Positions 10,718-40,766 of a stretch of 64,000 nt of DNA are shown here, piece after piece (within the stretch, counting starts at the first letter, position 1; each line of letters starts with the position of its first letter). The DNA is taken from the NCBI GenBank assembly GCA_021323945.1, contig JAJPKA010000014.1:186001-250000 (forward strand), read 5' to 3'. Below the pieces are notes generated by a model. The model searched no databases. It was not told the origin of the DNA and was given only the letters and a program-made list of their open reading frames with translations. The stretch is from Pseudomonadota bacterium (GTDB lineage Bacteria; Desulfobacterota; Binatia; Binatales; Binataceae). A program made the position numbers and the translations under genes.

Positions 10718-10719
10718 AA

Positions 10720-10773: not shown

Positions 10774-10775
10774 TC

Positions 10776-14873: not shown

Positions 14874-15262
14874 CCCCTATGCCGCGCCCCTCCCGCCGTG
14901 TGCGCAAGCGCGATGAACAGGTCCGCCGGCTGGCCCGCCGCATCAGGCGCGCCGATCCCGCCCTGGACGTGCCGTCCGCCACCTTGGGGGTCCGCCGGCT
15001 GGCGCAATTGTCCCTGCTCAGCGAGCGCCTGTACGAGCGCGCGAAGCGGGCCGAAACCGGGGATGATCCGCAAGCGTTCATCCTGGCGGTCGAAAGCTTT
15101 CGCCGGTGCGCCCAGACCTGCTCATTGCTCGAAAAAAACCTCCGCTGCGCCGTCAGCGTCGTCGAGCCGCCTAGCAACCTCGTGCTCACAATGGCCCGCA
15201 CAATTCGGGAGCGCCGCGAACAGGCCGGCGCAGCGGTTCCTTTCAATCCGGGCGAGGATTAG
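14852..15262 (+). CDS. Last operon gene, conserved in both tandem elements
   Basis: A 136-residue basic helical protein, homologous over about 120 residues to the product of 7361-7960 in the left element (shared DDPQAFILAVES, SLLEKNLR, AVSVV and PPSNL blocks). Its N-terminus is very basic (RPSRRVRKRDEQVRR), which fits nucleic acid binding. Family not recognised. It overlaps the membrane-protein gene by 22 bp and its stop codon lies in a hairpin that may end the operon. Confidence 0.75.
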   Translation: MAESTQLTPMPRPSRRVRKRDEQVRRLARRIRRADPALDVPSATLGVRRLAQLSLLSERLYERAKRAETGDDPQAFILAVESFRRCAQTCSLLEKNLRCAVSVVEPPSNLVLTMARTIRERREQAGAAVPFNPGED

Positions 15263-15279
15263 GCCGGAATACCGGCCTA
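15260..15279 (+). terminator. Hairpin at the end of the element operon
   Basis: TAGGCCGG (15260-15267) and CCGGCCTA (15272-15279) form a perfect 8-bp stem with a 4-nt loop; the stop codon of the last gene is the first three bases of the stem. There is no T-run after it, so it may slow or stabilise transcript ends rather than act as a classic terminator. Confidence 0.5.
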
Positions 15280-15292
15280 CGTGCTCAGCCAG
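15278..15292. repeat. Right-end motif shared by both elements (right copy)
   Basis: Same TACGTGCTCAGCCAG as at 8368-8382, again just downstream of the last operon gene and followed by a GCGCGCGAGCCGAAA stretch and a G-rich run. Overlaps the hairpin by two bases. Confidence 0.7.
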
Positions 15293-15530
15293 TGCCACCC
15301 GCCCCATCGCGCGCGCGAGCCGAAAACCACTAGGGGAGGGGTCTGGCACGAGCTTTGCTAGCCCGGAAAGCTTCTACTTAAAGCCCGGGCTTGTGCCGAG
15401 GCCTGGGCGGGCCGTCCCTCGTGAGGCGAGCTACAGCCCTTTGCTCCACCCAAGGCCCAAGCCTTGGGCGGGCCGAGGCCCGGGCGGGCCGAGAAACCTG
15501 ATATCAGGCTTTCGCTACCGACCGCAAAAA

Positions 15531-15560
15531 TATCCCCTAATATCCCCTAACATCCCCTAG
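15531..15560 (+). repeat. Three tandem 10-bp TATCCCCTAA repeats
   Basis: Units TATCCCCTAA, TATCCCCTAA and CATCCCCTAG follow each other without gap. The 10-bp period places them on one helix face. They sit 26 bp before the first 9-bp iteron cluster. Likely a protein-binding array. Confidence 0.8.
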
Positions 15561-15585
15561 AGTGCCGGGCCGCCGAGCCGCGAAA

Positions 15586-15653
15586 GTGACAGAGGTGACA
15601 GAAGTGACGAAGATCGGAGGAAAGTTTTCGGATTCGATACGCACACACATCAG
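15586..15653 (+). repeat. Repeat module R1 with triple 9-bp iterons
   Basis: Begins with GTGACAGAG, GTGACAGAA, GTGACGAAG in tandem, continues through a TTTTCGG-containing spacer and ends CACACACATCAG. The first 26 bp are identical to those of module R2 and the last 11 bp (ACACACATCAG) are also shared. Confidence 0.8.
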
Positions 15654-15709
15654 CGCTTCGCACGGCTCCCCACTTGGCACCCTCCGCTAGCAGAAAACCC
15701 TGGCACGTA

Positions 15710-15780
15710 GTGACAGAGGTGACAGAAGTGACGAATTTCCGGAAACACTTTTAGAATCCGGTAACGTACACACACATCAG
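15710..15780 (+). repeat. Repeat module R2 with triple 9-bp iterons
   Basis: A direct copy of module R1 124 bp further on: the same 26-bp iteron start, a spacer with TTTT and AGAATCCGG, and the same ACACACATCAG end. Its spacer is closer to the inverted left module (8881-8955) than to R1. Confidence 0.8.
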
Positions 15781-15913
15781 CCGCTGTGATTCCCTCACCA
15801 AACGCCAGAGGCTGAATAGCAGCCTCTTGTAGCAGGGCAGACCGCCAGGCAAGCCTGAGCGCTGCGCTGCCCAGGCTCGCTACCGTTCCCGTACCCCCAA
15901 CCTGTGCTCAAAG

Positions 15914-15932
15914 TTGGCACCTATTTGGCACC
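15914..15932 (+). repeat. Two TTGGCACC repeats at 11-bp spacing
   Basis: TTGGCACC at 15914-15921 and 15925-15932, about 30 bp from the att repeat. Same motif, orientation and period as the three units at 8788-8820, so both arms of the element carry the same binding site array. Confidence 0.8.
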
Positions 15933-15960
15933 AGCACCGGAAACACCGTTATCACCAGCC

Positions 15961-16024
15961 CGCTAAACCCTTGATTTTATTGGCGTCCCCGACGGGATTT
16001 GAACCCGTGTTACCGACGTGAAAG
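15961..16024. repeat. att site (64-bp direct repeat, right end of right element)
   Basis: Identical to 8590-8653. Here the tRNA part of the repeat (15981-16024) is continuous with the intact tRNA-Glu gene, so the element has rebuilt the tRNA on integration. The 20 bp beyond the tRNA end (15961-15980) belong to the element's own right end, since they recur at the right end of the left remnant but not beside the outermost fragment at 6430. Confidence 0.93.
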
Positions 16025-16160: not shown

Positions 16161-17384
16161 TCAGGCGCTTTTTTTGGTCGCTACCCAGGCGTCACGCATT
16201 GTACCAATCGCAAAATCTATTTCATCTTCGGAGATCGTCAACGGTGGCGCCAGGCGAACGACCCGGTCGGCGTTGAGCGTCCAGTTCACCACCACGCCTC
16301 GAGACAGGGTCTGGGCGACGAACTGCCGTACGATTCTCACCTCGGGGAATTCGATTCCGATTAAAAGGCCGGCTCCGCGAATATGAATACCCTCGTGCGC
16401 GAAGAGTCTGTTCAGCTGCTGCTGCATGAAGTTGCCGGCCCTCCGCGCTCGCTCCCACAGCCGCTGCTCCATAATGGTCTCGAGCGTGGCGCGCCCGGCG
16501 GCGCATGAGAGTGGGTGTCCGCCAAACGTTGTGATGTGGCCGAGTGGGGGATCTCGCGATAATACGCTCATAACTGCGTCGGACGCGCAAAAGGCTCCCA
16601 AGGGAAGGCCGCCACCAAGTGCTTTGGCCAAAACCAGTATGTCGGGAGTGACGTTGAAATGCTCGAGCGCAAAGAGTTGTCCTGTGCGGCCGAGACCGGT
16701 TAAAACCTCATCGAAAATCAGCAAGGTTCCGAGCTCGGTGCAGCGCCGGCGCAGCGCCTGAATAAACGCCGCGTGAGGTATCCTGACTCCGCCCTCGGCC
16801 TGGATTGGCTCAATTACGACCGCAGCCACTCGCTCGTCGAGCGCAGCGAGCGCGGTCTCGTCATCGTAAACAAGATGAAAGACGGGCCCAGGCAAGTTGC
16901 CAAAGGGCGCGCGGAATGTGACGTTGCCGGCCAGGGCCAAAGCTCCCATCGTATCTCCGTGATAGGCTCCATCAAATGCGACGAGAGCATTGCGCCCGGT
17001 ATATTTGCGTGCCGCCTTGAGTGCACCTTCTATCGCTTCGGCGCCGCTGTTGGTGAAGTAGATTCGCTCCAGTCCGCGAGGCAATACCCGCGCCAGCTCG
17101 GCTGCCAGGGCGGCCTGACTTTCCAACACATATTCGCCGTACACCATCACATGCAAATGGCGTTCAAGTTGACGCTTTATCGCGGCGACAACGGCAGGAT
17201 GGCGATGACCGAGGGCGGTCACGCCGATCCCGGCGATGAGATCGAGATAGGGGCGGTTATCGCAGGTGTACAGCCACGAGCCCTCCGCATGGTGAATTTC
17301 CAGACCAATAGGTGAGTCAGAGGTCTGGGCGAGGTGAGCGTGGAAGGCCTGGCGGGCCTGGCTCAGATTCTCCGTTGGTGTCAC
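16161..17384 (-). CDS. Class III PLP-dependent aminotransferase
   Basis: A 407-residue fold-type I aminotransferase of the acetylornithine/ornithine/4-aminobutyrate group. Seen: the PLP phosphate/ring-binding region (NSGAEAIEGALKAAR, residues 112-126), FDGAYHG (138-143), the PLP N1-binding Asp in IFDEV (Asp225) and the Schiff-base Lys254 in LAKALGGGLPLG. It moves an amino group between an omega-amine or alpha-amino acid and 2-oxoglutarate or pyruvate. The N-terminus (HHAEGSWLYTCD) fits the general aspartate-aminotransferase-family subgroup more than ArgD, so the substrate is open. GTG start at 17384 overlaps the stop of the crotonase gene (GTGA). No arginine pathway genes nearby. Confidence 0.9.
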   Translation of the reverse strand: MTPTENLSQARQAFHAHLAQTSDSPIGLEIHHAEGSWLYTCDNRPYLDLIAGIGVTALGHRHPAVVAAIKRQLERHLHVMVYGEYVLESQAALAAELARVLPRGLERIYFTNSGAEAIEGALKAARKYTGRNALVAFDGAYHGDTMGALALAGNVTFRAPFGNLPGPVFHLVYDDETALAALDERVAAVVIEPIQAEGGVRIPHAAFIQALRRRCTELGTLLIFDEVLTGLGRTGQLFALEHFNVTPDILVLAKALGGGLPLGAFCASDAVMSVLSRDPPLGHITTFGGHPLSCAAGRATLETIMEQRLWERARRAGNFMQQQLNRLFAHEGIHIRGAGLLIGIEFPEVRIVRQFVAQTLSRGVVVNWTLNADRVVRLAPPLTISEDEIDFAIGTMRDAWVATKKSA

Positions 17385-18067
17385 TCGAGGAAAAAGCCGT
17401 TGATATTGGCCTTGGCTTGTGCGATCGCTTTGGGATTTTTTGCCGCCAGAGATTGAGCTAGTTCCATCGCGACCGGCATTAGCTCCTCTTTTTTCACGAC
17501 GCGGTTCAGGAGACCCCAGTTGTACAATTCATCGGCCTTGAAATGCCGGCAGGTGAAGATGATCTCTTTGGCCCGCGCGGCTCCGACATGGGCAGCCAAC
17601 CATTGCTCGGGGCCACGAGGCCCCGGCGAGCCGAGATCAACCTCCGGCATCCAGAATTCGGCAGTGTCAGCGGCAATGCGGAGGTCGCAGGCCAGCGCGA
17701 TAAACCACCCACCGCCGACCGCGTATCCATTGACCGCGGCCACGGTCGGAATCTCCAAGTCGGTGAGCAAGGCCAGGGTGCGCCGCAAAGCGCGCCGACG
17801 ACCTGAGGCGCCTGACGTGAAAATACGCTGGCGTTCGGCCTGATCAGTGATTCCCTTGAGCCGCGACAGGTCGGCCCCGGCGGAAAACGTGTTGCCGGAG
17901 CCAGTCAGCAGTAGAGCCCGCACCTCCTCGTCATCGCGGATGCGAATCAGGTTGGCCTCAAGCTCGGACACACTGTCTTCGTTTAGGGGGTTGCGTTTTT
18001 CATAGCGGTCGAAGGTTAGGAGAGCCACACCACCTTCTTTCTTGAGATTGAAATAATTGGACATCAT
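17381..18067 (-). CDS. Crotonase-fold protein (enoyl-CoA hydratase-like)
   Basis: A 228-residue crotonase-superfamily protein. The oxyanion-hole segments are present (FSAGADLS, residues 62-69, and NGYAVGGGW, about 114-122). The usual GGGxEL motif is GGGWFI, so the first catalytic Glu of enoyl-CoA hydratase is replaced by Phe; a Glu remains in MPEVDLG. Hydration is therefore uncertain; isomerase, hydrolase or decarboxylase chemistry on a CoA thioester is possible. It shares the GGGW and CRHF/Y signatures with the protein at 34069-34764, a clear paralogue. It is the first gene of a two-gene unit with the aminotransferase. Confidence 0.88.
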   Translation of the reverse strand: MMSNYFNLKKEGGVALLTFDRYEKRNPLNEDSVSELEANLIRIRDDEEVRALLLTGSGNTFSAGADLSRLKGITDQAERQRIFTSGASGRRRALRRTLALLTDLEIPTVAAVNGYAVGGGWFIALACDLRIAADTAEFWMPEVDLGSPGPRGPEQWLAAHVGAARAKEIIFTCRHFKADELYNWGLLNRVVKKEELMPVAMELAQSLAAKNPKAIAQAKANINGFFLE

Positions 18068-18247
18068 GATTCCTCGTCGACAATAAATCGCCTTTACACC
18101 GTGTGCGAAAGAGCAATGAATTGTTCGGTGGTCTCGTTATTACTCGATTGCATATTTTTCAGCCTCAATTTCGCATCGAGAGCAACCGGGCCGCCAGGTG
18201 TTGCGCTGCGATGGCCGTCAACGGCAGCAGTTGGGGGTGCGATTGAG

Positions 18248-19432
18248 CTATTGGATTACGCCTTCGCGACGCAGCGTTTCAAGTTCGTCTTGACCGACTC
18301 CTATCCGGCCCAACACGTCCACCGTATCCTGACCCAATTGTGGCACCCTGGTTGGAGCACGATCAGGGTCGGCGCCCGATAGCCTAATCGCCGAGCCGAG
18401 AACCTTTACAGTTTGACTGTTGAATTCGGCGTCCCGAATAAGGCCGCGCTGCGCAAGTTCCGGATCGGCGGCAACCTCAGCAATGGTGCGCACAGGCGCA
18501 CACGGAACGCCGTTTGCCAGTAGAATTTCGACCAATTCGTCGCGCGTGCGATGCGCTGTCCAATCGCCCACGAGGGCATCTACCTCATCGATAATCGCAT
18601 ACCGACTCAAGTGATCGCGATAACGCGGGTCGCTCAGCAAGTCGACACGACCCATCAATTGTGCCAGGCAGCGCCAATGCTCCTCGGTGAGACAATAGAT
18701 CAGAATTTCCCCATCGCTAGTCTTGTAAGTGTTGCTCGGGCATGCTGACGGATGGCGATTGCCGAGGCGCGGCAGGCTGCGTCCTTCCATCGCCGCGGCG
18801 ATCATGCCGTTGACGGCTGGGATGCAGACGTCGAGCATCGCCACTTCAACTTTACCGCCCCGCCCCGTGCGAGCACGCTCGATCAGTTTGGCCATAATCC
18901 CGGCGACCAGATGCATTCCCGCGCTGGTATCGACGAGCGCAGCAGTTGCACGGACGCCGGGGCGATCGCTATAGCCGGTCATGTCGATGATTCCAGCGGC
19001 CGCCTGTACCGTGAAATCCATTGCCCCGAGCCGAGCCCAGCGGCTATCGGTGCCGTAGCCTTTACATGAAGCATAGATCAAACGCGGCAAGCGACTGGCG
19101 AGTTCGTCGTAGCCGAGCCCGAGTCGTTCAAGCGCGCCGGCCGCGTAGTTTTCCACGAGTACATCGGAGTCTTCCAACAGGCGCATCAAGAGCTGGCGGC
19201 CCCGTGGGTCTTTCAGATTGAGAGCCAGTGACTTTTTACCAGGATTGAGCATCAGGAAATTACTGTTAGCGCCACGCGAGATGGGTGGGCGCATTCTTAG
19301 AAACTCGCCCTCTCGCGGTGGTTCCACTTTGATAACCTCCGCCCCGAAATGAGCGAGCTGAAGGCCGCAATAAGGCCCGGCGTAAATCTGGGCGAGTTCG
19401 ATCACCCGAATACCTTCGAGCGGTAATCCCAT
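18248..19432 (-). CDS. Class III (CaiB/BaiF) CoA-transferase
   Basis: A 394-residue family III CoA-transferase. Seen: the family opening GIRVIELAQIYAGPYCG with AEVIKVEPP soon after, a SLALNLKDPRG segment, and the catalytic-Asp region (ARLGAMDFTVQAAAG, where the family has an Asp that forms the acyl anhydride). Such enzymes move CoA from an acyl-CoA donor to a carboxylate, as in carnitine, oxalate or bile acid metabolism. The start at 19432 matches the usual family start; an open frame to 19543 would add 37 residues of doubtful sequence. It is near a flavin oxidoreductase and an amidohydrolase on the same strand. Substrate unknown. Confidence 0.9.
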   Translation of the reverse strand: MGLPLEGIRVIELAQIYAGPYCGLQLAHFGAEVIKVEPPREGEFLRMRPPISRGANSNFLMLNPGKKSLALNLKDPRGRQLLMRLLEDSDVLVENYAAGALERLGLGYDELASRLPRLIYASCKGYGTDSRWARLGAMDFTVQAAAGIIDMTGYSDRPGVRATAALVDTSAGMHLVAGIMAKLIERARTGRGGKVEVAMLDVCIPAVNGMIAAAMEGRSLPRLGNRHPSACPSNTYKTSDGEILIYCLTEEHWRCLAQLMGRVDLLSDPRYRDHLSRYAIIDEVDALVGDWTAHRTRDELVEILLANGVPCAPVRTIAEVAADPELAQRGLIRDAEFNSQTVKVLGSAIRLSGADPDRAPTRVPQLGQDTVDVLGRIGVGQDELETLRREGVIQ

Positions 19433-19571
19433 CTTTCCACGACCTGTTTTGATCTCGTCGACAATGGTCTTCAGTTCAGCAAAGGTTTTACTTGATACGC
19501 CGACATAGATTGCATGTTTTGACTCTCGCAGCCGGACGGCCAAGCGTGCTGCGCGTTTTCCGAACGGGACA

Positions 19572-20639
19572 CTAGTACTTGGCGATCACTTCACGGCTGA
19601 ACTCCTCGATCATCTCCCGCCCGTGGGGCCAGACCACCTGAATCGCGACCTGTCTGAGACCCGCTGCCTCGAGGGCCTTCAAGCGGGCGATCACCTCCTC
19701 GCCGCGACCTGTAAGCGTCATGGTGCGGACGAGTGTCTCATCCACATATTTCTCCTCGCCTGGTTTCATGTAGATCAGGTGACCTTCATGAACTTCGAGG
19801 TAACGCTTGTTGGTCGGCGTCTTCATATGGGCGACGTAATCGTCGCGGTAGCGTTCCCAAAGCTTCAGGAGCGGGGTCGGCAAACCGGCGGCAACGGTTG
19901 ATTGTTCCCACAGCGCATGCAGGAAGACGATCGCAAACGGTCCCATGCGTTCTATCACCCGAGGCGAAGTGGCCGACTCGCCGTCACGCAAGATGCATCC
20001 GGAGGTCAAGACCGTGTTGGGGAAATTTTCGAGTGACCGTCCAGCCCGCTGAGCACCACGTTTTACGGCCTCGAGCTTTTCACGAAACCTTTCGGGACCC
20101 GATAAAACCGTTAGCCAACCATCGCCGATTTCGCCAGCCAGCTCGAGCGCTTTAGGACCATCGGCCGCAATATGGATCGGGATCCGGTCCTGGAGATTGA
20201 TGTAGCCATGATGAGGGTGGAGAAAGCGTATCGCACGCTCGCGCTCACCTTCGCGGTAGATGACCTCTTCTCCATTTAACAGCGAGCGCACCATCTGGAC
20301 GTACGACCGGAGCCGCCCAAGGGGGATGGGTGGCAGCCCCATGGTATTGCGGCCGGTGAAACCGGTGCCGATGCCAAGAATGGTGCGACCTGGCGCGAGC
20401 AAATTTATCGTTGCGATCGAATGAGCGGTGACGGGCTCTATGCGATTGCTTGGAATTGCGACGCCGGTCCCGAGCTTAATCCGCCGCGTGTGCTCAGCCG
20501 CCAGTGCGAGGCAGACGTACACATCGCTGTAGATCATCTGTGAATCATAGAACCAGGCATGGGTGAAGCCGTGATCTTCGGCAATTACTACATCTTGCCA
20601 CGCGTCAGGACGTGCCGGATAAGCGATTGCAAATTCCAT
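19572..20639 (-). CDS. LLM-class flavin-dependent oxidoreductase
   Basis: A 355-residue luciferase-like monooxygenase-family protein (TIM barrel). Seen: EFAIAYPARPD at the start, the SRY-like cofactor region replaced by IKLGTGVAIPSNR, GRTILGIGTGF and the IHIAADGPKAL strand near residue 160. The family uses FMN or F420; the resemblance to methylenetetrahydromethanopterin reductase-like proteins makes F420 plausible, but F420 genes are not in the window. The start at 20639 has AGGAGA 7-12 bp upstream; the frame continues to 20753 through a terminator hairpin and is rejected there. Substrate unknown. Confidence 0.9.
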   Translation of the reverse strand: MEFAIAYPARPDAWQDVVIAEDHGFTHAWFYDSQMIYSDVYVCLALAAEHTRRIKLGTGVAIPSNRIEPVTAHSIATINLLAPGRTILGIGTGFTGRNTMGLPPIPLGRLRSYVQMVRSLLNGEEVIYREGERERAIRFLHPHHGYINLQDRIPIHIAADGPKALELAGEIGDGWLTVLSGPERFREKLEAVKRGAQRAGRSLENFPNTVLTSGCILRDGESATSPRVIERMGPFAIVFLHALWEQSTVAAGLPTPLLKLWERYRDDYVAHMKTPTNKRYLEVHEGHLIYMKPGEEKYVDETLVRTMTLTGRGEEVIARLKALEAAGLRQVAIQVVWPHGREMIEEFSREVIAKY

Positions 20640-20700
20640 TGAAGTCGTCTCCTGAGACACTGATTCGCGCCGGTCGCCGCCAATGTCAATCCTAAGACAG

Positions 20701-20744
20701 AAAAAAATTCGCCCGGAACGACGGGCTTTCGTTCCGGGCGAATT
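20701..20744 (-). terminator. Rho-independent terminator (minus strand)
   Basis: A perfect 16-bp inverted repeat: 20706-20721 pairs with 20729-20744 around a 7-nt loop, with a run of seven A at 20701-20707 (T-run on the minus strand). It ends transcription of the amidohydrolase gene upstream and separates it from the flavin oxidoreductase gene, which must have its own promoter in the remaining 60 bp. Confidence 0.9.
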
Positions 20745-20768
20745 GGCAATCACGGGATCAGCAGGCGC

Positions 20769-30983: not shown

Positions 30984-31406
30984 TTATTTAGTGAACGATG
31001 GCGAGAGAGAATCGGAGCCCTCAGCCCGGTTTTGGGTGGTTTGGGCGAACAACAATTGCAGTGCTTGGCCGAGCTCTAGCTGACTGTATTTAGGGTCGGA
31101 GTAGAGAGCATCAAGCTTGCGGACCGCTTCTTCAGGCTCGATGTTGTTCATCGACAGCTCCTGGGTGAGCTGACCGATGATTTTATCGGCACCTCTCCAA
31201 TGCAGGTATTTCGCCGCAATTGAAAGCGTGTTGACTTGTTGGACGCTCACTTCCATGGCGTCCCGGTAGCCGTTGATATAGCCGGTCTTGGCCCCCCTCG
31301 TGAGCTGCTGCCAGAAAGAACCGTTATGCTCAAAGGTAGGCGATGCCAATCCGACTCCGCAGCTCAGCCCACAACCGACCACCACCCCCGCGACAAACTT
31401 TTTCAT
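30984..31406 (-). CDS. Secreted hypothetical protein
   Basis: A 140-residue protein from the ATG at 31406, chosen for GGAGGAGG upstream and because it places a signal peptide at the start (MKKFVAGVVVGCGLSCGVGLA). A Cys inside the hydrophobic core is probably not a lipobox. The mature domain is helical: ARGAKTGYINGYRDAM, then a helix ending in GADKIIGQL and EEAVRKLDALY. The GYxxGY pattern occurs in small secreted proteins of unknown function. An upstream start (31460) would bury the signal. Function unknown. Confidence 0.75.
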   Translation of the reverse strand: MKKFVAGVVVGCGLSCGVGLASPTFEHNGSFWQQLTRGAKTGYINGYRDAMEVSVQQVNTLSIAAKYLHWRGADKIIGQLTQELSMNNIEPEEAVRKLDALYSDPKYSQLELGQALQLLFAQTTQNRAEGSDSLSPSFTK

Positions 31407-31545
31407 CAGCGCGCCCTCCTCCGAGGCGGCATCTGAACTTGTTAGCAAATCGAGGCCCAAGGTGAAACATGCTCGTAATAGAGCTTGATTACCCGCCTGA
31501 CACCTGATGTGCGTTGAACCCCTTGGTTGACGGAGCGATTATAGA

Positions 31546-34023
31546 ATGAACGTCAATCGACATAACCTGGAACCGTTCCGTCGTGCTTCCATGACCCTTT
31601 TTCAGCGAGTGCTCGCCTATATAAACGCGCCTAACCCTCAGGAATTTTCTTCGCTCGCTTTAGAGGTGTTTCGCTATCAAGCGGCGCACGTACCGGTTTA
31701 CCGTAAATATCTCGCCAGCTTGAACGTCGACCCAGCGCTGGTCGGTTCGCTCGAAGAGATTCCACCGATGAGCACCCTCGCTTATAAATACGCGCGCATC
31801 GAAAACGAGTTACATCCGGAATCCGCCGCCTCTCGAGTGTTCCTCACCAGCGGTACCACACGCGGTCAGGAGCAACGCGGACGCCATCATGTACCCGCAC
31901 CCGAGATCTACCGGGCGTCCGCGATAGGGCATCTGCGCGCCATGGTGTTTCCCGACGGTAAGCGCCTTTCGATGCTTGCCCTCCATCCTATCGCGGAGCG
32001 AATGCCCGGATCGTCGTTGGCGCAAATGATCAGTTGGTGCATTGAAGAATTCGGCGATGGCACTACGGTTTGTGCGGCAACTCCTGAATCAATTGATACA
32101 GCGTCCGCGATCGAGTTCCTCCTGGCGGCGGAACGAAGCAACCGCCCGGTTTGCATCCTCGGCACCACCGCTTCCTGCGCCGCTCTGTTCGCTGCTATTC
32201 AAGATCGAGGTGTTCGAATTTCACTGCCCAAAGGTTCGCGCTTGATGGACACCGGGGGACCGAAGGGTCAGTCCAATCCGCTCCCTCCTGATCAGGTGGT
32301 CGCCGAGGCCTATCAGCTGCTGGGTCTCGACCCAGAGTTGGTGATCAATGAGTACGGCATGACCGAGATGTGTTCGCAGCTCTACGATGCCACCAGTTTC
32401 AATTGGCCATCAGCTGCTACACCGGGCATGAAGGTAAAGATCGCGCCCCCATGGTTGAGGCCCGCTGCGCTCGACCCAATTACCTTGATTCCTGCCCGCC
32501 AGGGACAGCCCGGCATCCTCGCTTTTTTCGACCTCGCTAATGTCGGCTCGATTTCGGCATTGATGACCGAGGATCTAGGAATCGTCGACGGGTACCGGGT
32601 CGTGGTCCTGGGACGGGCAAGCGGGGCGGATATCCGTGGCTGCGCGCTCGCCATCCGCCAATTCGTGCAGAATATTGAAAATCCCTCGTGGTCTTCAGCG
32701 ACGGCGGTTGTACATGGTCAGTCATTCGACCATCAGCCGGTGGAATCCAGCAGGCGACTGGAACCGATCGACATTGAAATTGCGGCTCGGCAATTGAGCT
32801 CCAGACTGACTGTGCCGTCAGTCGGGCACAGTGCGGCTGTGCTGTCTACGATCCTGCGAGAACTGACACAGACCGTGACGAGTGGTTCCAATGGCTGGCG
32901 AGAAGCTGTCCACCGGATCGCAGTCAATTCGGGATGCTCGGAGACGTTGCTCAAACTCTCCCTGGGCGCGCTGATGAAGCCGCTTGCCGATGGCGTTGAG
33001 TTTGCCGACAAGATCAAGCAACGACGCACCCTGTTCGGCTTTATCATGCCCGGCAATGTTCCCGGTGCTGGGGTTCACGAGCTGCTCGCGGTCCTGGTCG
33101 CCGGAGGCGCCGCTCTTGTGAAAACCTCCACAGCCGAGCCGGTTTTTTTCTCCCAATTTGCCGCGACGCTTCGCCAGTTGGATGGCCGGTTCGGTACCGA
33201 CCTGGGCAGTCGGTTGCGGGTGTTCAATTGGTCTCGCGAGCGCAAAGATCTCACCGAGACGCTGGTGAGAAACTGTCAGCACGTGGTGGCTCTCGGGGAT
33301 GACCTCACGATTGCGCAACTGGAGCAGCTAGCGCCGGGCGGACAAATCATTGGCTTCGGCAGCCGTGCCAGTGCGGCAGCGGTGTTGGCCGACGCCATGG
33401 AAGGGGACGCGATCGTATCCACGGCTGACCGTTTGGCGCTGGATTGTGCGATGTTCGACCAGCGGGGATGCCTTTCGCCGCACCATATCTTTGTCGAGGG
33501 GCGGCCGCGGGAGTTTGCCGCAGAATTGGCGGCTGCCCTCTCTCGACTGGCTCCAATTGCTTTTTGTAACGACGGATTGCAGAGCCTGGCCCTGCAACAA
33601 AAGGCGGCTCTCCGTAGGGTGCGAGAAACTGCCCGATGGCGCCAGCTGGGAGGCCATGGCGTTGAACTTTGGCAGGATGCCAATTTCGGCTGGACGGTCG
33701 TTCTTGACGAGGCGGCAGCGTTCACGGTTTCGCCCGGATTCCGAACGGTGTATGTCTCAGGCTTTCGTGATCCATCCGAACTCGAACGTCGGCTGGAACC
33801 GATAAGGGACAAGATTGAGGGCTTCATTATTGCCGACGGTCCACCCTGCGAACGCGTCCATGCGGGCTCTCGCTCTAATACGAGTGCAGCGACGGCCGCG
33901 GCGATTCGCGCAATAGCTGCCCGTTGCGGTGCCACGCACATCTGCGGGCCTGGCGAGATCCAGTCCCCCCCGCTTTTGTGGCGACACGGCGGCGGTCAGT
34001 TCATTCGGCTGTTTATCGAGTAG
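31546..34023 (+). CDS. LuxE-LuxC fusion: acyl-protein synthetase / acyl-CoA reductase
   Basis: A single 825-residue frame joining two proteins that are normally separate. Residues 1-370 are LuxE-like (adenylate-forming acyl-protein synthetase): FLTSGTTRGQEQRG near 100, DTGGPKGQS near 236, NEYGMTEMCSQLYD near 266. Residues about 405-825 are LuxC-like (aldehyde-dehydrogenase-fold acyl reductase): GFIMPGNVPGAG near 500, the KTSTAEP strand, and the nucleophile Cys642 in FDQRGCLSP. LuxE activates a fatty acid and passes it to LuxC, which reduces it to an aldehyde with NADPH; fusion would channel the acyl group. GGAG is 9 bp before the ATG. There is no luxAB or luxD; the aldehyde probably feeds lipid or wax metabolism. 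A crotonase gene follows 45 bp on. Confidence 0.9.
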   Translation: MNVNRHNLEPFRRASMTLFQRVLAYINAPNPQEFSSLALEVFRYQAAHVPVYRKYLASLNVDPALVGSLEEIPPMSTLAYKYARIENELHPESAASRVFLTSGTTRGQEQRGRHHVPAPEIYRASAIGHLRAMVFPDGKRLSMLALHPIAERMPGSSLAQMISWCIEEFGDGTTVCAATPESIDTASAIEFLLAAERSNRPVCILGTTASCAALFAAIQDRGVRISLPKGSRLMDTGGPKGQSNPLPPDQVVAEAYQLLGLDPELVINEYGMTEMCSQLYDATSFNWPSAATPGMKVKIAPPWLRPAALDPITLIPARQGQPGILAFFDLANVGSISALMTEDLGIVDGYRVVVLGRASGADIRGCALAIRQFVQNIENPSWSSATAVVHGQSFDHQPVESSRRLEPIDIEIAARQLSSRLTVPSVGHSAAVLSTILRELTQTVTSGSNGWREAVHRIAVNSGCSETLLKLSLGALMKPLADGVEFADKIKQRRTLFGFIMPGNVPGAGVHELLAVLVAGGAALVKTSTAEPVFFSQFAATLRQLDGRFGTDLGSRLRVFNWSRERKDLTETLVRNCQHVVALGDDLTIAQLEQLAPGGQIIGFGSRASAAAVLADAMEGDAIVSTADRLALDCAMFDQRGCLSPHHIFVEGRPREFAAELAAALSRLAPIAFCNDGLQSLALQQKAALRRVRETARWRQLGGHGVELWQDANFGWTVVLDEAAAFTVSPGFRTVYVSGFRDPSELERRLEPIRDKIEGFIIADGPPCERVHAGSRSNTSAATAAAIRAIAARCGATHICGPGEIQSPPLLWRHGGGQFIRLFIE

Positions 34024-34068: not shown

Positions 34069-34764
34069 ATGCCTGAGAACTTTGAATTCGAATCCGGGGG
34101 CGCGATCAGCACGATCACATTCAATCGGCCCGAGCGGCGTAACTGTATGAGTCGCGAGGTCATGCTCGAATTCGAGCAACTTATCCTACGAGTGCGCGAC
34201 GATCGTGCCACGCGCGTGCTGATTGTCACTGGGAATGGACCTGCGTTTTCGGCCGGTGCCGACATTTCAGGCACTAAGGGAATCGAGGATCCGGTCGCGC
34301 GGCAGCGCATTTTCGCCGAGCGCAACCGCGGGTTGCCGCGCATCATCGGGCGGGTATTCGACACGATCCTGCGCCTGGATTGTATGACAATTGGTGCGGT
34401 GAATGGCTTCGCCGTGGGCGGCGGATGGGCGCTGGCGGCGGCATTTGATTTCATTGTCGCGGCCGAGAACGCACAGTTCTGGGTGCCGGAGGTCGAATTG
34501 GGAGTGCCTTTTGCCGGGTTACCGGCGGAGGTAATGGCTAGACGGCTCGGCCCCTGGCTTGCCAAGGAAGCCATGATCGTCTGCCGACACTACAGTGCGC
34601 AAGAATTGTTCGCGCTGGGTATGATTAACAAAGTGGTTAGAAACGACCAACTGATGCCCGCTGCGCGCGAACTGGCCGAGCGTTTGTTAAAGTTGCCAGC
34701 CAAGTCCGCGACTGCAACGAAGCACGTGATTGACGGGGTGTTCGCCGGTCCGCGACTCTACTAA
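34069..34764 (+). CDS. Crotonase-fold protein, paralogue of 17381-18067
   Basis: A 231-residue enoyl-CoA hydratase/isomerase-family protein. The oxyanion-hole segments FSAGADISG (about 62-70) and NGFAVGGGWALAA (about 110-122) are present, but the usual GGGxEL is GGGWAL, so the first catalytic Glu is Ala; the PEVELG segment keeps a Glu. The GGGW signature, CRHYSAQELFALG and LMPAARELAERL align with the 17381 protein, so both came from one ancestor. Hydratase activity is doubtful; a different CoA-ester reaction is likely. It begins an operon with the VOC protein and flavin oxidoreductase. SD GGGGAGA upstream. Confidence 0.88.
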   Translation: MPENFEFESGGAISTITFNRPERRNCMSREVMLEFEQLILRVRDDRATRVLIVTGNGPAFSAGADISGTKGIEDPVARQRIFAERNRGLPRIIGRVFDTILRLDCMTIGAVNGFAVGGGWALAAAFDFIVAAENAQFWVPEVELGVPFAGLPAEVMARRLGPWLAKEAMIVCRHYSAQELFALGMINKVVRNDQLMPAARELAERLLKLPAKSATATKHVIDGVFAGPRLY

Positions 34765-34836
34765 GCTGATTGCCAGCCATTGCAGGCAGCTTGTTGCCAT
34801 GAAGTTGCTCACACCAACCGAGGGAGCCCGCTAGCG

Positions 34837-35334
34837 ATGATCCTGCCAGACAGAATTGGACATGTCGTAATCAAGGTCCGCAATCTCGAGCGTTCCAAGC
34901 AGTTTTTCACTGAGGTGCTCGGACTTCAGCTGATGATGGAGCTGCCGAAACTCAAAATTGCATTCTTTGCCAGTAACGGTCGCGACCACCATGAGATCGC
35001 ATGCGCCGAAGTCGGCGACGAGGCGGAGGGCCAGCACCGCAAACAAATCGGCCTGCAGCATATCGCTTTCCGCCTCAAGGATGAGGCCCATCTGCGCGCC
35101 GCCTACCGACAGCTCAAGGAAAAGCGCGTTCCCATCGAGTTCACGGTCGATCACGGAGTCACGAAGAGCATTTACTTTCGGGATCCCGACGGGCTGCTGT
35201 TTGAAGTGTACTGCGATAATCCGCCGGAATATGTCGCCCGCATGAAGGCCAATAGTTATGCGGGCATGGACAAACTGGATTTCGCTGCCGAGGAGCGTAG
35301 CCTGGCCGAGGCGTTGAGCGGCTTGATGGAATAG
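34837..35334 (+). CDS. VOC / glyoxalase-fold protein
   Basis: A 165-residue vicinal-oxygen-chelate protein. The opening RIGHVVIKVRNLERSKQFFTEVLGL is the classic first beta-alpha-beta unit with a metal-binding His. A second His lies in LQHIAFRLKD, and a Glu in the GLLFEVYCDNPPEY strand completes a His-His-Glu metal site. It resembles extradiol dioxygenases and methylmalonyl-CoA epimerase relatives; the single pair of modules fits the 150-170-residue group. The ATG at 34837 follows GAGGGAG; an upstream ATG (34780) adds an unlikely segment. Substrate unknown; neighbours suggest an aromatic or acyl-CoA compound. Confidence 0.88.
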   Translation: MILPDRIGHVVIKVRNLERSKQFFTEVLGLQLMMELPKLKIAFFASNGRDHHEIACAEVGDEAEGQHRKQIGLQHIAFRLKDEAHLRAAYRQLKEKRVPIEFTVDHGVTKSIYFRDPDGLLFEVYCDNPPEYVARMKANSYAGMDKLDFAAEERSLAEALSGLME

Positions 35335-35509
35335 CAAGGCAAGGGTGAGTTGAGCTCATCGGCCCGAGATACGTTGGTTCAGCACGCGGGCCTGACGCCA
35401 GGTTGCCTGGTCTCCAACAGGCAGGTGGCATCGTTTGAGCGGCGGCTGGAGCTCTCGCGCAAGCCGTTCGCGAAGCAAACTGCCGCTCTCGGTTGTGGCG
35501 GAGACCGTC

Positions 35510-36559
35510 ATGAAGTTTGGAGTTCACTATCAGTCCTATTCCGGTACTGAGCCGGTGCGATGGTATCGCGAGACGCTGGAGGAGGCCGTTCACGCCGAAG
35601 CTCTTGGGTTTGAGTCGATCTGGCCGGTGGAACAGCACTTCATAGCCGACCTATCGATTCTATCAGCTCCGCTTCTATTTCTGGCGGCGGCGGCGGAACG
35701 CACTAAAACTTTGCGGCTCGGCATTGCGGTCATATTGTTGCCGCTCTCTCATCCGGTCCGCATTGCCGAAGAGGTTGCGACACTTGACGTGTTGAGCAAT
35801 GGTCGGGTGGAATTCGGTATTGGCAGAGGGGCGATCCCGGCGCATTTCAGTGGTTTTGGAGTGCCTCAGAACGAGAGCCGCGATCGCTTTCTGGAGAGCC
35901 TGGACGTTGTGTTGCGGGCGTGGCAAGAAGGCACTCTTTCTTATCACGGACGATTCTTCGAATTCGACAACCTGAACGTAGTACCCAAGCCGGTGCAAAG
36001 ACCGCATCCACCGCTGCGAGTAGCCTGCAATAGTGCCGACACTTTTGAACTGATGGGGCAACTCGGGTACAAGATCTTTGCCGCTTCCCAAGTCAACCCC
36101 TACCATCGAATCAAGGAATACCTGGCGATCTACGATCAGGGTCGAGCGGTGGCAGGACATCAGGGACGGACTGAAGATGATTTCACCCTGCTGACGCCAC
36201 TTTTCGTGGCTGAAGATACGGCCCGAATTCATCGCGAGATGGCACCGAGTGTGCGCCATTTGTTGCAAACCGCAACTTCGCTCCTGGAATCGGCTGCGGT
36301 GCCGGCAAAGGCTGCCGCACACTTGCGCGAAGTAGCTGAACGCTCGCGCCGGCTGACGTACGAGCGTATGAGCGAAACCATGGCGATCTTTGATACGCCG
36401 GAGCGCTGTATTGAGCGCTTGGGACGCCTGCAGGAAGAGTTCAAAATGGAACGCACGATTTGCTGGTTTAACCCGGGTGGGCGGGTTCCCCACGAGCGAG
36501 TGATGCAGAGCATGGAACTGTTCGCCGCCAAGGTGATGCCTTGGTTCGTTAAGAACTGA
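35510..36559 (+). CDS. LLM-class flavin-dependent oxidoreductase
   Basis: A 349-residue luciferase-like monooxygenase. Seen: MKFGVHYQSY, EAVHAEALGFESIWPVEQHF, RLGIAVILLPLSHPVRIAEEVA (the cofactor-binding barrel strand) and LSNGRVEFGIGRG, all typical of the LLM family. It probably uses FMNH2 or F420. The start at 35510 has GGAGA 6 bp upstream; the frame continues back to 35435 without a site. It is on the same strand as the crotonase and VOC genes, as the LLM at 19572 is with its crotonase, so the two regions share a module. Bioluminescence is not implied: a partner alpha/beta subunit is missing. Confidence 0.9.
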   Translation: MKFGVHYQSYSGTEPVRWYRETLEEAVHAEALGFESIWPVEQHFIADLSILSAPLLFLAAAAERTKTLRLGIAVILLPLSHPVRIAEEVATLDVLSNGRVEFGIGRGAIPAHFSGFGVPQNESRDRFLESLDVVLRAWQEGTLSYHGRFFEFDNLNVVPKPVQRPHPPLRVACNSADTFELMGQLGYKIFAASQVNPYHRIKEYLAIYDQGRAVAGHQGRTEDDFTLLTPLFVAEDTARIHREMAPSVRHLLQTATSLLESAAVPAKAAAHLREVAERSRRLTYERMSETMAIFDTPERCIERLGRLQEEFKMERTICWFNPGGRVPHERVMQSMELFAAKVMPWFVKN

Positions 36560-36590
36560 GTGATGCCTCGGCTTTGATGCGTGCGAAACG

Positions 36591-37298
36591 ATGGTCGAGG
36601 AGCTAGGAGGGGCCAGGCTGAATTTGATCTTCGACGCCGACGATACGCTTTGGGATTCAAATGTTCATTTTCTCGAAGCCGAAGCTGAAATCGTCGAGCT
36701 GTTGAGTATCCGCGGGCTCACTGGGGCACAAATTCGTGCAGCGATTCGCCGCCACGAATTGGATATTATTACTGAAATGGGCTATGGACGGCGCCCCTAT
36801 GTCTTGGCTGTCCAGCGTACTATTCGGGAATTGTTGCCGCTCGACGGTTACGAAGCGGTGGCGTTGGAGGTCGAACGCATTGGCGGACGTCTGATGGATC
36901 GTCCTTGCCCACTCTTGCCTGGAGTTGAACCGACGCTTCGGGAACTCGCAGGCCGCCATCGGCTGCTGTTGTTTACCAAGGGGCAGCCGGAGGAACAAAT
37001 GGCCAAGCTTGAGCGAGCCGGGCTGCGTTCTTTGTTCGCCCGCGTCGGTATTCCGTTGGAGAAGGATGAAGCGGCCTATCGATTGCTTTTGGCACAGGCC
37101 GAACTGGATCCTGGACGAACGTTTATGATTGGCAACAGCCCCCGCTCTGACATCAATCCAGCGCTACGTGCCGGCTTGAGAGGGGCAGTTTTCATCCCGC
37201 ATCCGCACACGTGGGAGCTGGAGCAGGAAGATCTGGAAGTGCGAGATAGCCGCGTGACCACGCTCACAAGCTTTTCTGGTCTGCTTGAACTGTTCTAG
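36591..37298 (+). CDS. HAD-family hydrolase
   Basis: A 235-residue HAD phosphatase: motif I FDADDTLWDSN (residues 14-24), a helical cap, motif II LLFTKG near 126, motif III Lys (LPLEKDEAAYR region) and motif IV IGNSPRSDINPAL near 180. The Asp-Asp-Thr pattern at motif I is usual for phosphomonoesterases of the FIGfam YjjG/phosphoglycolate group. An AGGAGG stretch lies inside the frame at about 36605, just before Leu codons, so the true start could be a few codons downstream of 36591. Function otherwise unknown. It follows the LLM gene closely on the same strand. Confidence 0.8.
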   Translation: MVEELGGARLNLIFDADDTLWDSNVHFLEAEAEIVELLSIRGLTGAQIRAAIRRHELDIITEMGYGRRPYVLAVQRTIRELLPLDGYEAVALEVERIGGRLMDRPCPLLPGVEPTLRELAGRHRLLLFTKGQPEEQMAKLERAGLRSLFARVGIPLEKDEAAYRLLLAQAELDPGRTFMIGNSPRSDINPALRAGLRGAVFIPHPHTWELEQEDLEVRDSRVTTLTSFSGLLELF

Positions 37299-37311
37299 AA
37301 TTGACTAGCCA

Positions 37312-38277
37312 ATGGGTACTACTGCAGGTCTTCAGCTACTGGACGGCTCCGTTGAGCATCCTCTACGCCGGAAACTTTACCAGCGCAACCCGCCGATACC
37401 CCTAAGGCCGTTGCATCGGATGTGGCGGCGCACGATTGACGAAATCGAGATCGTGCGGGTTGAGCTCCCGGTTCGTCGGTTACATCCAGAACTTAATGGG
37501 ATCATTGCCTGTCAGATAAGTGATTTTCATCTGGATCGCGATGAAGATGTGGTTCGGCTCGAGCAGGCCGTCAAAGCCATCAATCGACAACATCCGGAGT
37601 TCGTGTTTTTGACGGGTGACTATTTTTCGGGCCCGACGACCATGCGTCGTTACATCGACCCCTTCCGCCACGCTTTGGCGGAACTGCAGCCCTCTGTCGG
37701 GGTCTTTGCGATTCCTGGTAATCACGACCACTGGTCATCCATAAGTGTCATCGCCCAGGCGCTGAATGCTGCGGGTGTGCGTGTCCTCGCCAACGAGCAC
37801 CAACGCGTAGTGACGCGCGGTCGAGACCTCGTGATCGTCGGCATTGACGATCTTTGGTCGCGACGCGCCGAGCCAGCTCGGGCGTTTCAGGGCCTTGGGC
37901 CGGATGACTGCACGATCGTGCTGGCACACAATCCCGATACCGCGCTCTACACCCGCCACCTGGGGCCAGGGGTGATGCTATGCGGTCATACCCATGGGGG
38001 TGTGGTGCGCATCCCGTTTTACGGGTCGGTGATCAATTCGATCTTAAGGATCGGAAAACAGTACTACGCAGGACTTAACCGTTACGGCGAGTTCTACATT
38101 TACACCAATCGCGGGCTCGGTACCTTTTGGCTGCGGATCCGGATCAATTGTCGACCCGAGATCTCGCGCTTTCGCCTTAGCTCGTTCGACGACGACGTCG
38201 TGCAGGAGCCTCCGCGGCCCCGCAGCTCCAGTCGCCGTCATCATCCGCGGCTGCACCGTTATACCCATTTTAGATGA
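37312..38277 (+). CDS. Calcineurin-like metallophosphoesterase
   Basis: A 321-residue metallophosphoesterase. All motifs are present in order: DFHLD (the usual GDxHG/DxH variant, near residue 70), GDYF near 101, GNHDHW near 136, AHNPD near 203 and GHTHGG near 222. This is the UDP-2,3-diacylglucosamine hydrolase / YkuE-like group, several members of which hydrolyse phospholipids or nucleotides. No signal peptide or membrane anchor is seen. Starts 14 bp after the HAD gene. Its end overlaps the convergent CoA-transferase gene by 8 bp. Substrate unknown. Confidence 0.88.
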   Translation: MGTTAGLQLLDGSVEHPLRRKLYQRNPPIPLRPLHRMWRRTIDEIEIVRVELPVRRLHPELNGIIACQISDFHLDRDEDVVRLEQAVKAINRQHPEFVFLTGDYFSGPTTMRRYIDPFRHALAELQPSVGVFAIPGNHDHWSSISVIAQALNAAGVRVLANEHQRVVTRGRDLVIVGIDDLWSRRAEPARAFQGLGPDDCTIVLAHNPDTALYTRHLGPGVMLCGHTHGGVVRIPFYGSVINSILRIGKQYYAGLNRYGEFYIYTNRGLGTFWLRIRINCRPEISRFRLSSFDDDVVQEPPRPRSSSRRHHPRLHRYTHFR

Positions 38278-39478
38278 TTTTACGTTCGCGTAACGAAGTT
38301 ATCTCCTGGGCGGTTAAGCCTAGTTCGCCACAATAGACACTTTCATTGTCAGCACCCAATTGGGGACTGGGTGAGTGCGGCGGGGTCGGTTTGCCGTTAA
38401 AGCGTACTGGCGAAGTGAATATAGTGATCGGGCCGAGTTGAGGATGATCAATCTTTTGTAGCGCGCCACGCTCGACTAAATGCGGGTCCGTCATAACTTC
38501 CGGCAGGTCTTTGATAACTCCGCAAATAATGTCATTGGCATGCAGCAACTCCATGATCTCGGCTCTCGTCTTCATGCTGGTCCATTGCCCAATCAGCGCG
38601 TCAATTTCGTCGCGATGCTGCGAGCGGGCCGATAATTTGGCAAAGCGAGGATCCTCACCCAGCTCCGGGCGTCCGATGATTTGGCACAGCCGACGCCAGC
38701 GGGCATTATCTGCCGCCAGGATCATGACCCAGCCGTCGCTGGCCGGATATGCGTTAGCTGGGGTAATTACACCGGCGGAGCCGCGGTTGCCTTCGCGCAA
38801 CTGCCGCAAGCCCATTCCATAGTAGGCACTGATGTGTGAGACCATCGAGGGCAGCACTGCTTCCTGCATTGAGATCTCGACCATGACGCCTTCGCCGGTG
38901 CGGTCACGCTGGCGGAGAGCGGCGAGGATGCCAGCGCACAGATGGGTTGCGCCGAGCACATCGGCGATGATTGCTCCGCATTTCAGTGGGGGATCGTCCG
39001 GCCAGCCAGTTACCGCCATTACGCCGCTCATCGCCTGGACTATGGGATCAAAGGCGGGAAGGTTGCGGTTGGGTCCAGACTGTCCGTATCCCGTACTGCT
39101 GGCGTAGACAAGGCGGGGGTTGAGTTGACGTAGCGCCTCGTAGTTCAGACCCATCCGTTCCATGGTGCCAGCTTCGAAGTTCTCTACGACGACGTCGGCT
39201 TTTCGGACCAGACGCTTGAAAATTTCCCGCCCCTCGTCGGTCTTGAGATTGAGCGTGATCGAGCGCTTGTTGGCATTCATCAAGGCGAAGGCCAGCCCGA
39301 TGGACTGCGTCGAGTCGCGGCGATACGCGGGGCGCATGCCATCGCCCCATTTAGGCGATTCAACTTTGATGATTTCGGCACCCATATATCCGAGCAACAT
39401 AGTGGCATACGGGCCATTGACGAAATGAGTCAGATCGAGCACGCGAATGCCGTCCAGTGGAAGTATCGCCTGTTGCAT
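38270..39478 (-). CDS. Class III (CaiB/BaiF) CoA-transferase
   Basis: A 402-residue family III CoA-transferase, paralogous to 18248-19432. Seen: GIRVLDLTHFVNGPYATMLLG, AEIIKVESP, SITLNLKTDEGR, VENFEAGTMERMGLNYE and NLPAFDPIVQAMSG, where the Asp is the family's catalytic residue. It transfers CoA between an acyl-CoA and a carboxylate. The start ATG at 39478 is the usual family position; upstream frame to 39646 is low-complexity. It is divergent from the SGNH gene and convergent with the phosphoesterase. Part of the second copy of the crotonase / LLM / CoA-transferase set. Confidence 0.9.
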   Translation of the reverse strand: MQQAILPLDGIRVLDLTHFVNGPYATMLLGYMGAEIIKVESPKWGDGMRPAYRRDSTQSIGLAFALMNANKRSITLNLKTDEGREIFKRLVRKADVVVENFEAGTMERMGLNYEALRQLNPRLVYASSTGYGQSGPNRNLPAFDPIVQAMSGVMAVTGWPDDPPLKCGAIIADVLGATHLCAGILAALRQRDRTGEGVMVEISMQEAVLPSMVSHISAYYGMGLRQLREGNRGSAGVITPANAYPASDGWVMILAADNARWRRLCQIIGRPELGEDPRFAKLSARSQHRDEIDALIGQWTSMKTRAEIMELLHANDIICGVIKDLPEVMTDPHLVERGALQKIDHPQLGPITIFTSPVRFNGKPTPPHSPSPQLGADNESVYCGELGLTAQEITSLRERKII

Positions 39479-39554
39479 CAGCGCAGACCTCGTCGTTGGC
39501 GTCAGCCGAGATGTTTGGCTACATATCGCTGCCAACGCATAATACGCAAGTCGC

Positions 39555-40766
39555 ATGATTAAGAAGTGGTGCGGTACACTCGCGCTCATCATCGCTGGCT
39601 TTGCCCTCGCCTTGGGTCTGGCCGACGTTGGCGTGCGAGTGGCCAACTGGTGGTTTCCGTATTTCTATTGCTACGACCCTCACCGTGGATGGGGCTTGAA
39701 TGCGGGATCTCACGGATGGTATCGGCGCGAGGGTGTAGCCTACGTCAGGATCAATCATGACGGTTTTCGGGGGCCAGACTACGCCAGAACAAAGCCTCCG
39801 GGAGTTTTTCGGGTAGCCGTATTGGGAGACTCATATGTTGAAGCGATCCAAGTACCCGAAGATAAAACTTTCACGGCGGTTATCGGCCGTCGCCTCTCCC
39901 ATTGCCCGTCGCTCAAAGGCAAGCATGTCGAATCTATGAACTTCGGCGTGGACGGATACGGCACTGCCCAGGAACTGATAACGTTGCGCCGCAAAGTCTG
40001 GCAGTACTCACCGGACGTTGTGGTCCTGGCGATCTTTCTAGGCAACGATCTCCGCAACAATTCAATTGCACTCGAAACGGATCAATGCCGACCGTTTTAC
40101 ACCTACCAAGACGGGCATCTCAGGTTGGCCGGGCCGCTAGTCGATTCAGCGGCGTATCGAATGTGGTGTGCGGCGCGATTCGATTACCGCGATCTGCGCT
40201 TCGTGGAACTCTTCCGCAACACGTGGGAGACACTAAAGCACGGCCCCAGTCTGCCAACAGCGCAACATCCGATCGAGAAAGCCATCAATTACGATATCTA
40301 TAAGCCGCCCACCAGCCGTGCATGGCAGGATGCGTGGCAGGTGACGGAGGCACTTATCAGCCAAATCCATGATGAGGTGTTGCGTCATCACGCGATGTTC
40401 CTGGCGGTCACGGAAGACACTAGCATTCAAGTGTGGCCGCAGTCGCAAACTCGCAAGCAGTTCGAGGAAAAGCTCGGGGTGTCAGATCTGTTCTACCCGG
40501 ATCGGAGGATCGCGGCGCTGGGGCGTCGAGACGGTTTCCAAGTGCTGAACCTCGCACCCATCCTGCAAGTTTACGCGGAGACGCATCACGTCTTTCTCCA
40601 CGGTTTCAAAAATACGCCGATGGGTTTCGGACATTGGAACGAGACCGGGCACGAACAGGCGGGACGTGCGATCGCCGACAAGCTATGCGACATGCTGGCC
40701 GAGAATCCGACACACGATGATCAGATTACCGCTCCACGACAAGCTCACTTTGCGGGAGATTCATGA
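39555..40766 (+). CDS. Membrane-anchored SGNH-family hydrolase
   Basis: A 403-residue protein with an N-terminal signal anchor (about 8-24) and an SGNH/GDSL hydrolase domain. Seen: block I GDSYVEA with nucleophile Ser93, a Gly block FGVDGYGTAQ near 130, the Asn of block III in LGNDLRNN near 158, and the Asp/His pair of block V replaced by GHWNETGHEQAG near 374. The large spacing and the periplasmic location fit the DltD/AlgX-like acyltransferase-esterase group that modifies polysaccharides. Stand-alone here. Esterase or acetyl-transfer activity is inferred from the motifs only. Confidence 0.82.
   Translation: MIKKWCGTLALIIAGFALALGLADVGVRVANWWFPYFYCYDPHRGWGLNAGSHGWYRREGVAYVRINHDGFRGPDYARTKPPGVFRVAVLGDSYVEAIQVPEDKTFTAVIGRRLSHCPSLKGKHVESMNFGVDGYGTAQELITLRRKVWQYSPDVVVLAIFLGNDLRNNSIALETDQCRPFYTYQDGHLRLAGPLVDSAAYRMWCAARFDYRDLRFVELFRNTWETLKHGPSLPTAQHPIEKAINYDIYKPPTSRAWQDAWQVTEALISQIHDEVLRHHAMFLAVTEDTSIQVWPQSQTRKQFEEKLGVSDLFYPDRRIAALGRRDGFQVLNLAPILQVYAETHHVFLHGFKNTPMGFGHWNETGHEQAGRAIADKLCDMLAENPTHDDQITAPRQAHFAGDS

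Follow-up and report, generated by a model that had tools for sequence, protein, structure and literature searches.

The 64,000-nucleotide stretch of DNA analysed here, which we call the window, comes from a Binataceae genome (G000; 3.74 Mb in 22 contigs) and carries a single gene with both a LuxE-type and a LuxC-type domain. LuxE and LuxC are separate subunits in luminous bacteria, where they make fatty aldehydes. The features relevant to the analysis are listed below.

16161-17384, minus strand: class-III aminotransferase gene, the likely orthologue of the gene directly after LuxC in relatives
17381-18067, minus strand: neighbouring enoyl-CoA hydratase family gene, overlapping the start of the aminotransferase gene by 4 bases
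30984-31460, minus strand: gene, divergent from the fusion gene, whose small product has a signal-like N-terminus; it marks the family's LuxE locus
31546-34023, plus strand: LuxE-LuxC fusion gene, 825 amino acids in a single open frame
31591-32670, plus strand: LuxE domain (adenylating, acyl-protein synthetase-like), residues 16-375
32641-32643, plus strand: codon of Cys366 (in RGCAL), putative acyl acceptor at the end of the LuxE domain
32683-32760, plus strand: low-confidence linker, residues 380-405
32731-34020, plus strand: LuxC domain (acyl reductase, aldehyde-dehydrogenase fold), residues 396-825
33469-33471, plus strand: codon of Cys642 (in FDQRGCLSP), putative reductase nucleophile
34069-36559, plus strand: crotonase, VOC and LLM genes downstream of the fusion gene, which are lineage-specific neighbours by Pfam and locus comparison as far as tested

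The open frame of the fusion gene runs for 825 uninterrupted codons from an ATG at 31546 to a stop at 34021-34023. The true start may be at 31591, because Met16 is aligned with a methionine in four of the five other fused Binataceae proteins. Pfam model PF04443 (LuxE) matched residues 33-372 with 66.5 bits against a gathering cut-off of 24.9, and PF05893 (LuxC) matched residues 496-755 with 130 bits against a cut-off of 21. The LuxE domain contains the motifs TSGTT at residues 101-105 and YGMTE at residues 270-274. A profile made from the alignment of six fused proteins (A1) matched both chains of the solved Photobacterium complex 7xc6, with E values of 3.4e-22 for LuxE and 2e-21 for LuxC. In these profile alignments Cys366 lies opposite the cysteine of GCSL in the LuxE chain 7xc6_E, and Cys642 lies opposite the cysteine of QQACFS in the LuxC chain 7xc6_A. 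We take these counterparts to be the acyl-carrying cysteines of the lux system, in which the LuxE cysteine is acylated. Both positions are invariant in a 63-sequence alignment that includes the window protein, with cysteine in all 36 rows having a letter at the Cys366 position and in all 33 having one at the Cys642 position. A preliminary description of this DNA had picked out Cys642 as the nucleophile, and the alignments agree with that choice of residue; the same description overlooked both Cys366 and the conserved class-III aminotransferase.

The NCBI equivalog models for bioluminescence scored far under their cut-offs, with 52.7 bits against 550 for LuxE (NF052244) and 46.8 bits against 750 for LuxC (NF052251). 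The fusion is therefore a relative of the luminous enzymes and not a luminous enzyme. Judged by its sequence, the protein combines, in a natural fusion, a predicted LuxE-type acyl-adenylating enzyme with a predicted LuxC-type acyl reductase.

An AlphaFold2 model of the full-length fusion, built on the 63 aligned sequences, had a mean pLDDT of 89.1 and a pTM of 0.90. The single stretch with pLDDT below 50 was at residues 380-405, between the two halves. For residues 396-825 of the predicted model the best structural match was LuxC of 7xc6, with a Z-score of 32.9 and an rmsd of 2.9 over 389 aligned residues; the next entry scored 29.0, and Foldseek likewise ranked LuxC of 7xc6 first. The LuxE half modelled alone had a pLDDT of 87.6. 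Among the matches listed for this half, PaaK-type adenylating ligases were the best (Z-score 24.6, rmsd 3.3, 312 aligned residues), other adenylating enzymes were also present, and 7xc6_E did not appear despite its strong sequence match. The first half of the fusion is thus predicted to fold like an acid-activating enzyme. Because this predicted fold is of the PaaK type, the acid need not be fatty. The production of an aldehyde from an acid, which the preliminary description had proposed, is still the most likely role for the fusion, but the fatty nature of the acid in that proposal is not required.

A scan of genome contigs with the single protein found no relative, and a scan with the A1 alignment found 335, of which 80 were kept. 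Both domains were present within the locus in 28 of the 30 Binataceae loci sampled. Six of these 28 are fused (G000, G003, G004, G009, G018 and G028), and the same six genomes gave the only matches spanning both domains without a stop, among the matches listed for 148 genomes of the class. A LuxE-LuxC fusion was also found outside the Binataceae in a Myxococcales metagenome-assembled genome (L060). The draft genome G001, from the same genus as the window genome, does not contain the start of LuxE/C. At the junctions of the 22 split loci the LuxC ATG overlaps the LuxE stop by four bases in nine cases. On phylogenetic trees (LuxE, 44 rows of which 42 were scored; LuxC, 42 rows) the fused state requires at least four changes, one of them for L060, which is itself on a long branch. 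An AU test rejected a single clade for the six Binataceae fusions with a p value of 0.0001, for a group named after the tree had been seen.

These distributions bear on whether the single frame in the window genome could have arisen through faulty assembly or base calling in which a stop separating two genes was lost. Such an error is conceivable, since two genes are present at 22 of 28 Binataceae loci and, in six of the split loci (L002, L006, L007, L010, L019 and L029), they share a frame and only a stretch containing at least one stop comes between them. A base error in the window genome alone would, however, leave unexplained the fusions in five other Binataceae assemblies and in the Myxococcales genome, which alignments show to have linkers of different lengths, as well as the four state changes on the trees. 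The contig carrying the window is also long, at 383,842 bases. An artefact of this kind is accordingly very improbable. The fusion is real and recurrent, and its description as natural is upheld; two genes in related genomes, which were to have counted against it, do occur, but the fusion stands beside them. A DNA-level comparison with a phage collection gave no match. Neither a LuxE-LuxC fusion nor a LuxE-LuxC-aminotransferase set is described in the titles or abstract openings of the open-licence papers among the matches listed.

In relatives, the gene after LuxC encodes a protein of around 400 amino acids, which is a class-III aminotransferase (PF00202) in those scanned. An aminotransferase homologue follows LuxC in 20 of the 27 other Binataceae loci, and these are all 20 of the loci that reach past LuxC; the remaining seven (L035, L039, L041, L042, L044, L047 and L052) end inside LuxE/LuxC or just after LuxE. 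The window copy (PF00202, 344.5 bits) lies 14 kb from the fusion gene on the opposite strand. It is 66% identical to the copy at locus L032, as against 40% for the next-best match in the genome. Lys254, in the motif LAKALGG, is the candidate PLP lysine and is presumably the PLP-binding residue.

Outside the Binataceae, an aminotransferase homologue of 47-58% identity is found beside LuxE or LuxC in 26 of 53 loci, which by record title belong to Binatia, Methylomirabilota, Nitrospirae, KSB1 and others. The aminotransferase of L060 is a weaker match at 33% identity. A further 26 of the 53 loci have no aminotransferase in the locus, some of them ending near LuxE, and in Gemmatimonadetes and Halalkalibacter there are LuxE-LuxC pairs that have none despite long flanks. 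A single stop-to-stop frame holds both LuxC and the aminotransferase at L077 (the same record as L122), L089, L102, L106, L110 and L121, with the Pfam domains read on L077 and L102. Both neighbouring pairs in the order LuxE, LuxC, aminotransferase therefore occur joined, the first in the Binataceae and the second elsewhere. The joining of steps one and two, and of steps two and three, fits a linear path from acid to aldehyde to amine.

Plasmids carry a different arrangement. Plasmid matches numbered 28 records, of which four were read, from Lactiplantibacillus, Azospirillum, Pantoea and Priestia. The four plasmid regions (L111-L114) contain LuxE and LuxC with an SDR or 3-oxoacyl-ACP-reductase gene and without an aminotransferase, and two of them contain an ABC transporter. 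This composition suggests a separate branch that would convert an acid to an alcohol, perhaps for an imported compound. One of the plasmid operons adjoins a family-23 permease gene.

The presence of the aminotransferase was compared with that of LuxE/C in 148 genomes of the class, with thresholds of E 1e-20 for LuxE/C and 1e-100 for the aminotransferase among the candidates scored per genome. LuxE/C was present in 107 genomes and the aminotransferase in 101; both were found in 101 genomes, LuxE/C only in six, the aminotransferase only in none and neither in 41. The six genomes with LuxE/C only (G062, G077, G078, G080, G089 and G103) are assemblies of 470 to 1200 contigs with completeness of 80 to 100, two of them being listed as 96% and 100% complete. 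In a set of 57 relatives, which overlaps the 148 genomes and to which many of the 27 Binataceae loci also belong, LuxE/C was found in 50, and the same 50 had an aminotransferase match at 9.1e-128 or better. The seven relatives lacking LuxE/C had only weaker aminotransferase matches, of 1e-70 to 3e-82 and 39-43% identity. The Fisher p value of 2e-30 for co-occurrence in the 148 genomes takes no account of kinship and linkage and should not be read literally. As the genes mostly lie next to each other, part of their joint absence is due to linkage and common descent. Better evidence than the p value is provided by the genomes in which the genes are unlinked. These are the window genome, G021, where LuxE/C and the aminotransferase are on different contigs, and, so far as can be read from its draft, G001, where an aminotransferase of 75% identity is on a different contig from LuxE/C.

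The genes immediately downstream of the fusion gene are, as first described, those for crotonase, VOC and LLM proteins. The setting is also non-luminous as stated: the neighbouring LLM protein scored 115.5 bits against a luciferase alpha cut-off of 600 bits, in a comparison that covered the fusion neighbourhood. Bioluminescence was rejected for this neighbourhood on that score. The preliminary description went on to read a function from the three downstream genes, a step that the wider comparison does not bear out. Crotonase and VOC genes were each found in none of the 27 other Binataceae loci, and an LLM gene was found in two, with 32-34% identity; 17 of the 27 extend at least 3 kb beyond LuxC. 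In G001, as in the window, crotonase (82% identity) and VOC (88%) genes come after the end of LuxC. A set of crotonase, CoA-transferase III and LLM genes occurs twice in the window, at 17381-20753 and at 34069-39646, with crotonases that are around 41% identical. Since one set lies downstream of the fusion gene and the other lies upstream of the aminotransferase gene in its reading direction, and since crotonase and VOC genes are retained after LuxC in G001, the fusion and the aminotransferase might together serve degradation or detoxification with these enzymes. The association has so far been seen in this genus only and was not found at the other Binataceae loci, and we regard such a role as quite improbable.

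The proposed wax purpose fared no better. A wax-ester synthase domain (WS/DGAT, PF03007) was matched in 34 of 57 genomes and in none of the six fused Binataceae genomes, though a match is present in G001, and wax esters were rejected on these grounds. More broadly, the fusion could make a fatty aldehyde from which lipids, wax esters or alcohols are formed, or which the neighbouring LLM monooxygenase uses, with the aminotransferase acting elsewhere. The general precedent of LuxE and LuxC in luminous bacteria favours a fatty aldehyde, and outlets for it can be named in the LLM gene 1.4 kb downstream, the SDR-type gene of the plasmid relatives, which could form an alcohol, and the WS/DGAT match in G001. 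Against this explanation are the lack of a WS/DGAT match in the window genome and the other five fused genomes, the failure to find crotonase and VOC genes and the rarity of LLM genes at the 27 other loci, and the way in which the aminotransferase tracks LuxE/C over 148 genomes. It appears unlikely on balance. A natural-product cluster around the trio of genes was also considered and rejected, as the neighbour proteins scanned, which were a selection, were mixed and none pointed to a product. Near Binataceae loci they include a histidine kinase, a PEP-mutase-like protein and a PDZ protease, and elsewhere TPR, PRISE-like reductase, release factor, QueG-like, MFS and beta-lactamase-fold proteins.

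We favour, with a probability of about 0.65, a pathway in which the LuxE-LuxC fusion would form an aldehyde from an acid, using ATP and NAD(P)H, and the aminotransferase would convert this aldehyde to a primary amine. Following the precedent of the two families, the LuxE half would activate a carboxylic acid with ATP, the activated acyl group would be loaded on Cys366 as a thioester and handed to Cys642, and the LuxC half would reduce the acyl thioester to the aldehyde with NAD(P)H. The class-III aminotransferase encoded at 16161-17384 would then turn the aldehyde into the amine. The direct basis for this pathway is the fusion itself, the two conserved cysteines, the predicted folds, the repeated occurrence of fusion and the co-occurrence of the aminotransferase; from these we infer the reaction steps, the amine product and the nature of the acid, for which a fatty acid is the default assumption.

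Several observations count against amine formation. The aminotransferase gene is out of the operon in the genus of the window genome, six LuxE/C-positive genomes have no aminotransferase match, and related LuxE or LuxE-LuxC genes elsewhere have no aminotransferase in the locus. Over the last third of LuxC, identity between the window and G001 is 54%, lower than the 82% and 88% of the downstream crotonase and VOC genes, and the window LuxC is on a long branch in the tree. This low conservation and the long branch could reflect relaxed constraint.

A wider proposal can be put forward only tentatively, and we would rate it at somewhat below even odds. Binatia and several other phyla may share an undescribed pathway, free of CoA and ACP, in which LuxE, LuxC and a dedicated aminotransferase would convert an acid to a primary amine in three steps, with the acyl group passed between cysteines and with fusion of steps one and two or of steps two and three. 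A long-chain amine in the cell envelope could be the product. If so, the lux-type aldehyde enzymes would have a second and widespread job, the making of amines, across a large bacterial group whose members are mostly uncultured. The window would also offer a compact biocatalyst, namely an acid reductase in one chain that depends on ATP and NAD(P)H, together with its aminotransferase. An acid-to-amine route by LuxE, LuxC and an aminotransferase would be uncharacterised.

The closest comparison for the fusion is the LuxC-LuxE complex of Photobacterium phosphoreum (PDB 7xc6), which is made of the same two families, has both cysteines in alignment with those of the window protein and shares the LuxC fold. 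It differs from the window protein in having two chains instead of one, and the window protein scores below the equivalog cut-offs and has no luciferase-level LLM protein in its neighbourhood.

For the formation of amines, the nearest parallels come from tambjamine and prodigiosin biosynthesis. TamA and TamH of the tambjamine YP1 pathway are reported to convert fatty acids to amines, with TamH joining a class-III aminotransferase to a domain that resembles acyl-ACP reductases (PMC9594044). As in the pathway proposed here, fusion proteins share out the activation of an acid, the reduction of a thioester and the formation of a primary amine by class-III transamination. In that account, however, the reductase is acyl-ACP-reductase-like and the acyl group is carried on ACP, whereas the window enzyme is of the LuxC type and its acyl group would be carried on cysteines. 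PigE of the prodigiosin pathway combines a thioester reductase and a class-III aminotransferase in a single chain, in parallel with the LuxC-aminotransferase open frames of other relatives; its reductase is likened to acyl-ACP reductases (PMC8341465), and there is no LuxE, unlike in the system described here. The window aminotransferase scored 291.7 bits against the PigE model, below its cut-off of 850. Of the components that define a Tam/Pig-type pathway, the class-III aminotransferase partner is present in the window and the acyl-ACP-reductase-type reductase is absent, with a LuxC of aldehyde-dehydrogenase fold found instead. By analogy the chemistry would be the same as in Tam/Pig amine formation, but with the LuxE and LuxC families providing activation and reduction.

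Homologues of luxE and luxC are also reported in a non-luminous setting in the flagellar glycosylation islands of Aeromonas (PMC7874193). They resemble the window gene in their non-luminous setting but are listed as separate genes in a glycosyltransferase context. The mel2 locus is described as having a LuxC-like gene and no clear LuxE gene (PMC1793995).

The small protein encoded divergently from the fusion gene has a homologue in 24 of the 27 other Binataceae loci. Its direct matches are to Binataceae loci only, and at E 0.001 it matched no Pfam family. The idea of a divergent regulator conserved across many phyla was considered and rejected, because the large cluster of minus-strand open reading frames is mostly antisense to LuxE.

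Adjoining the aminotransferase gene is a region bounded by an exact 65-bp direct repeat, at 8589-8653 and 15960-16024. The 3' end of a tRNA-Glu is part of the repeat. Between the repeats are genes for a tyrosine integrase (9066-10124) and a DUF3854 protein (10973-13291). The region 8589-16024 has a GC content of 0.62, compared with 0.58 for the window, and is probably an integrated element of about 7.4 kb.
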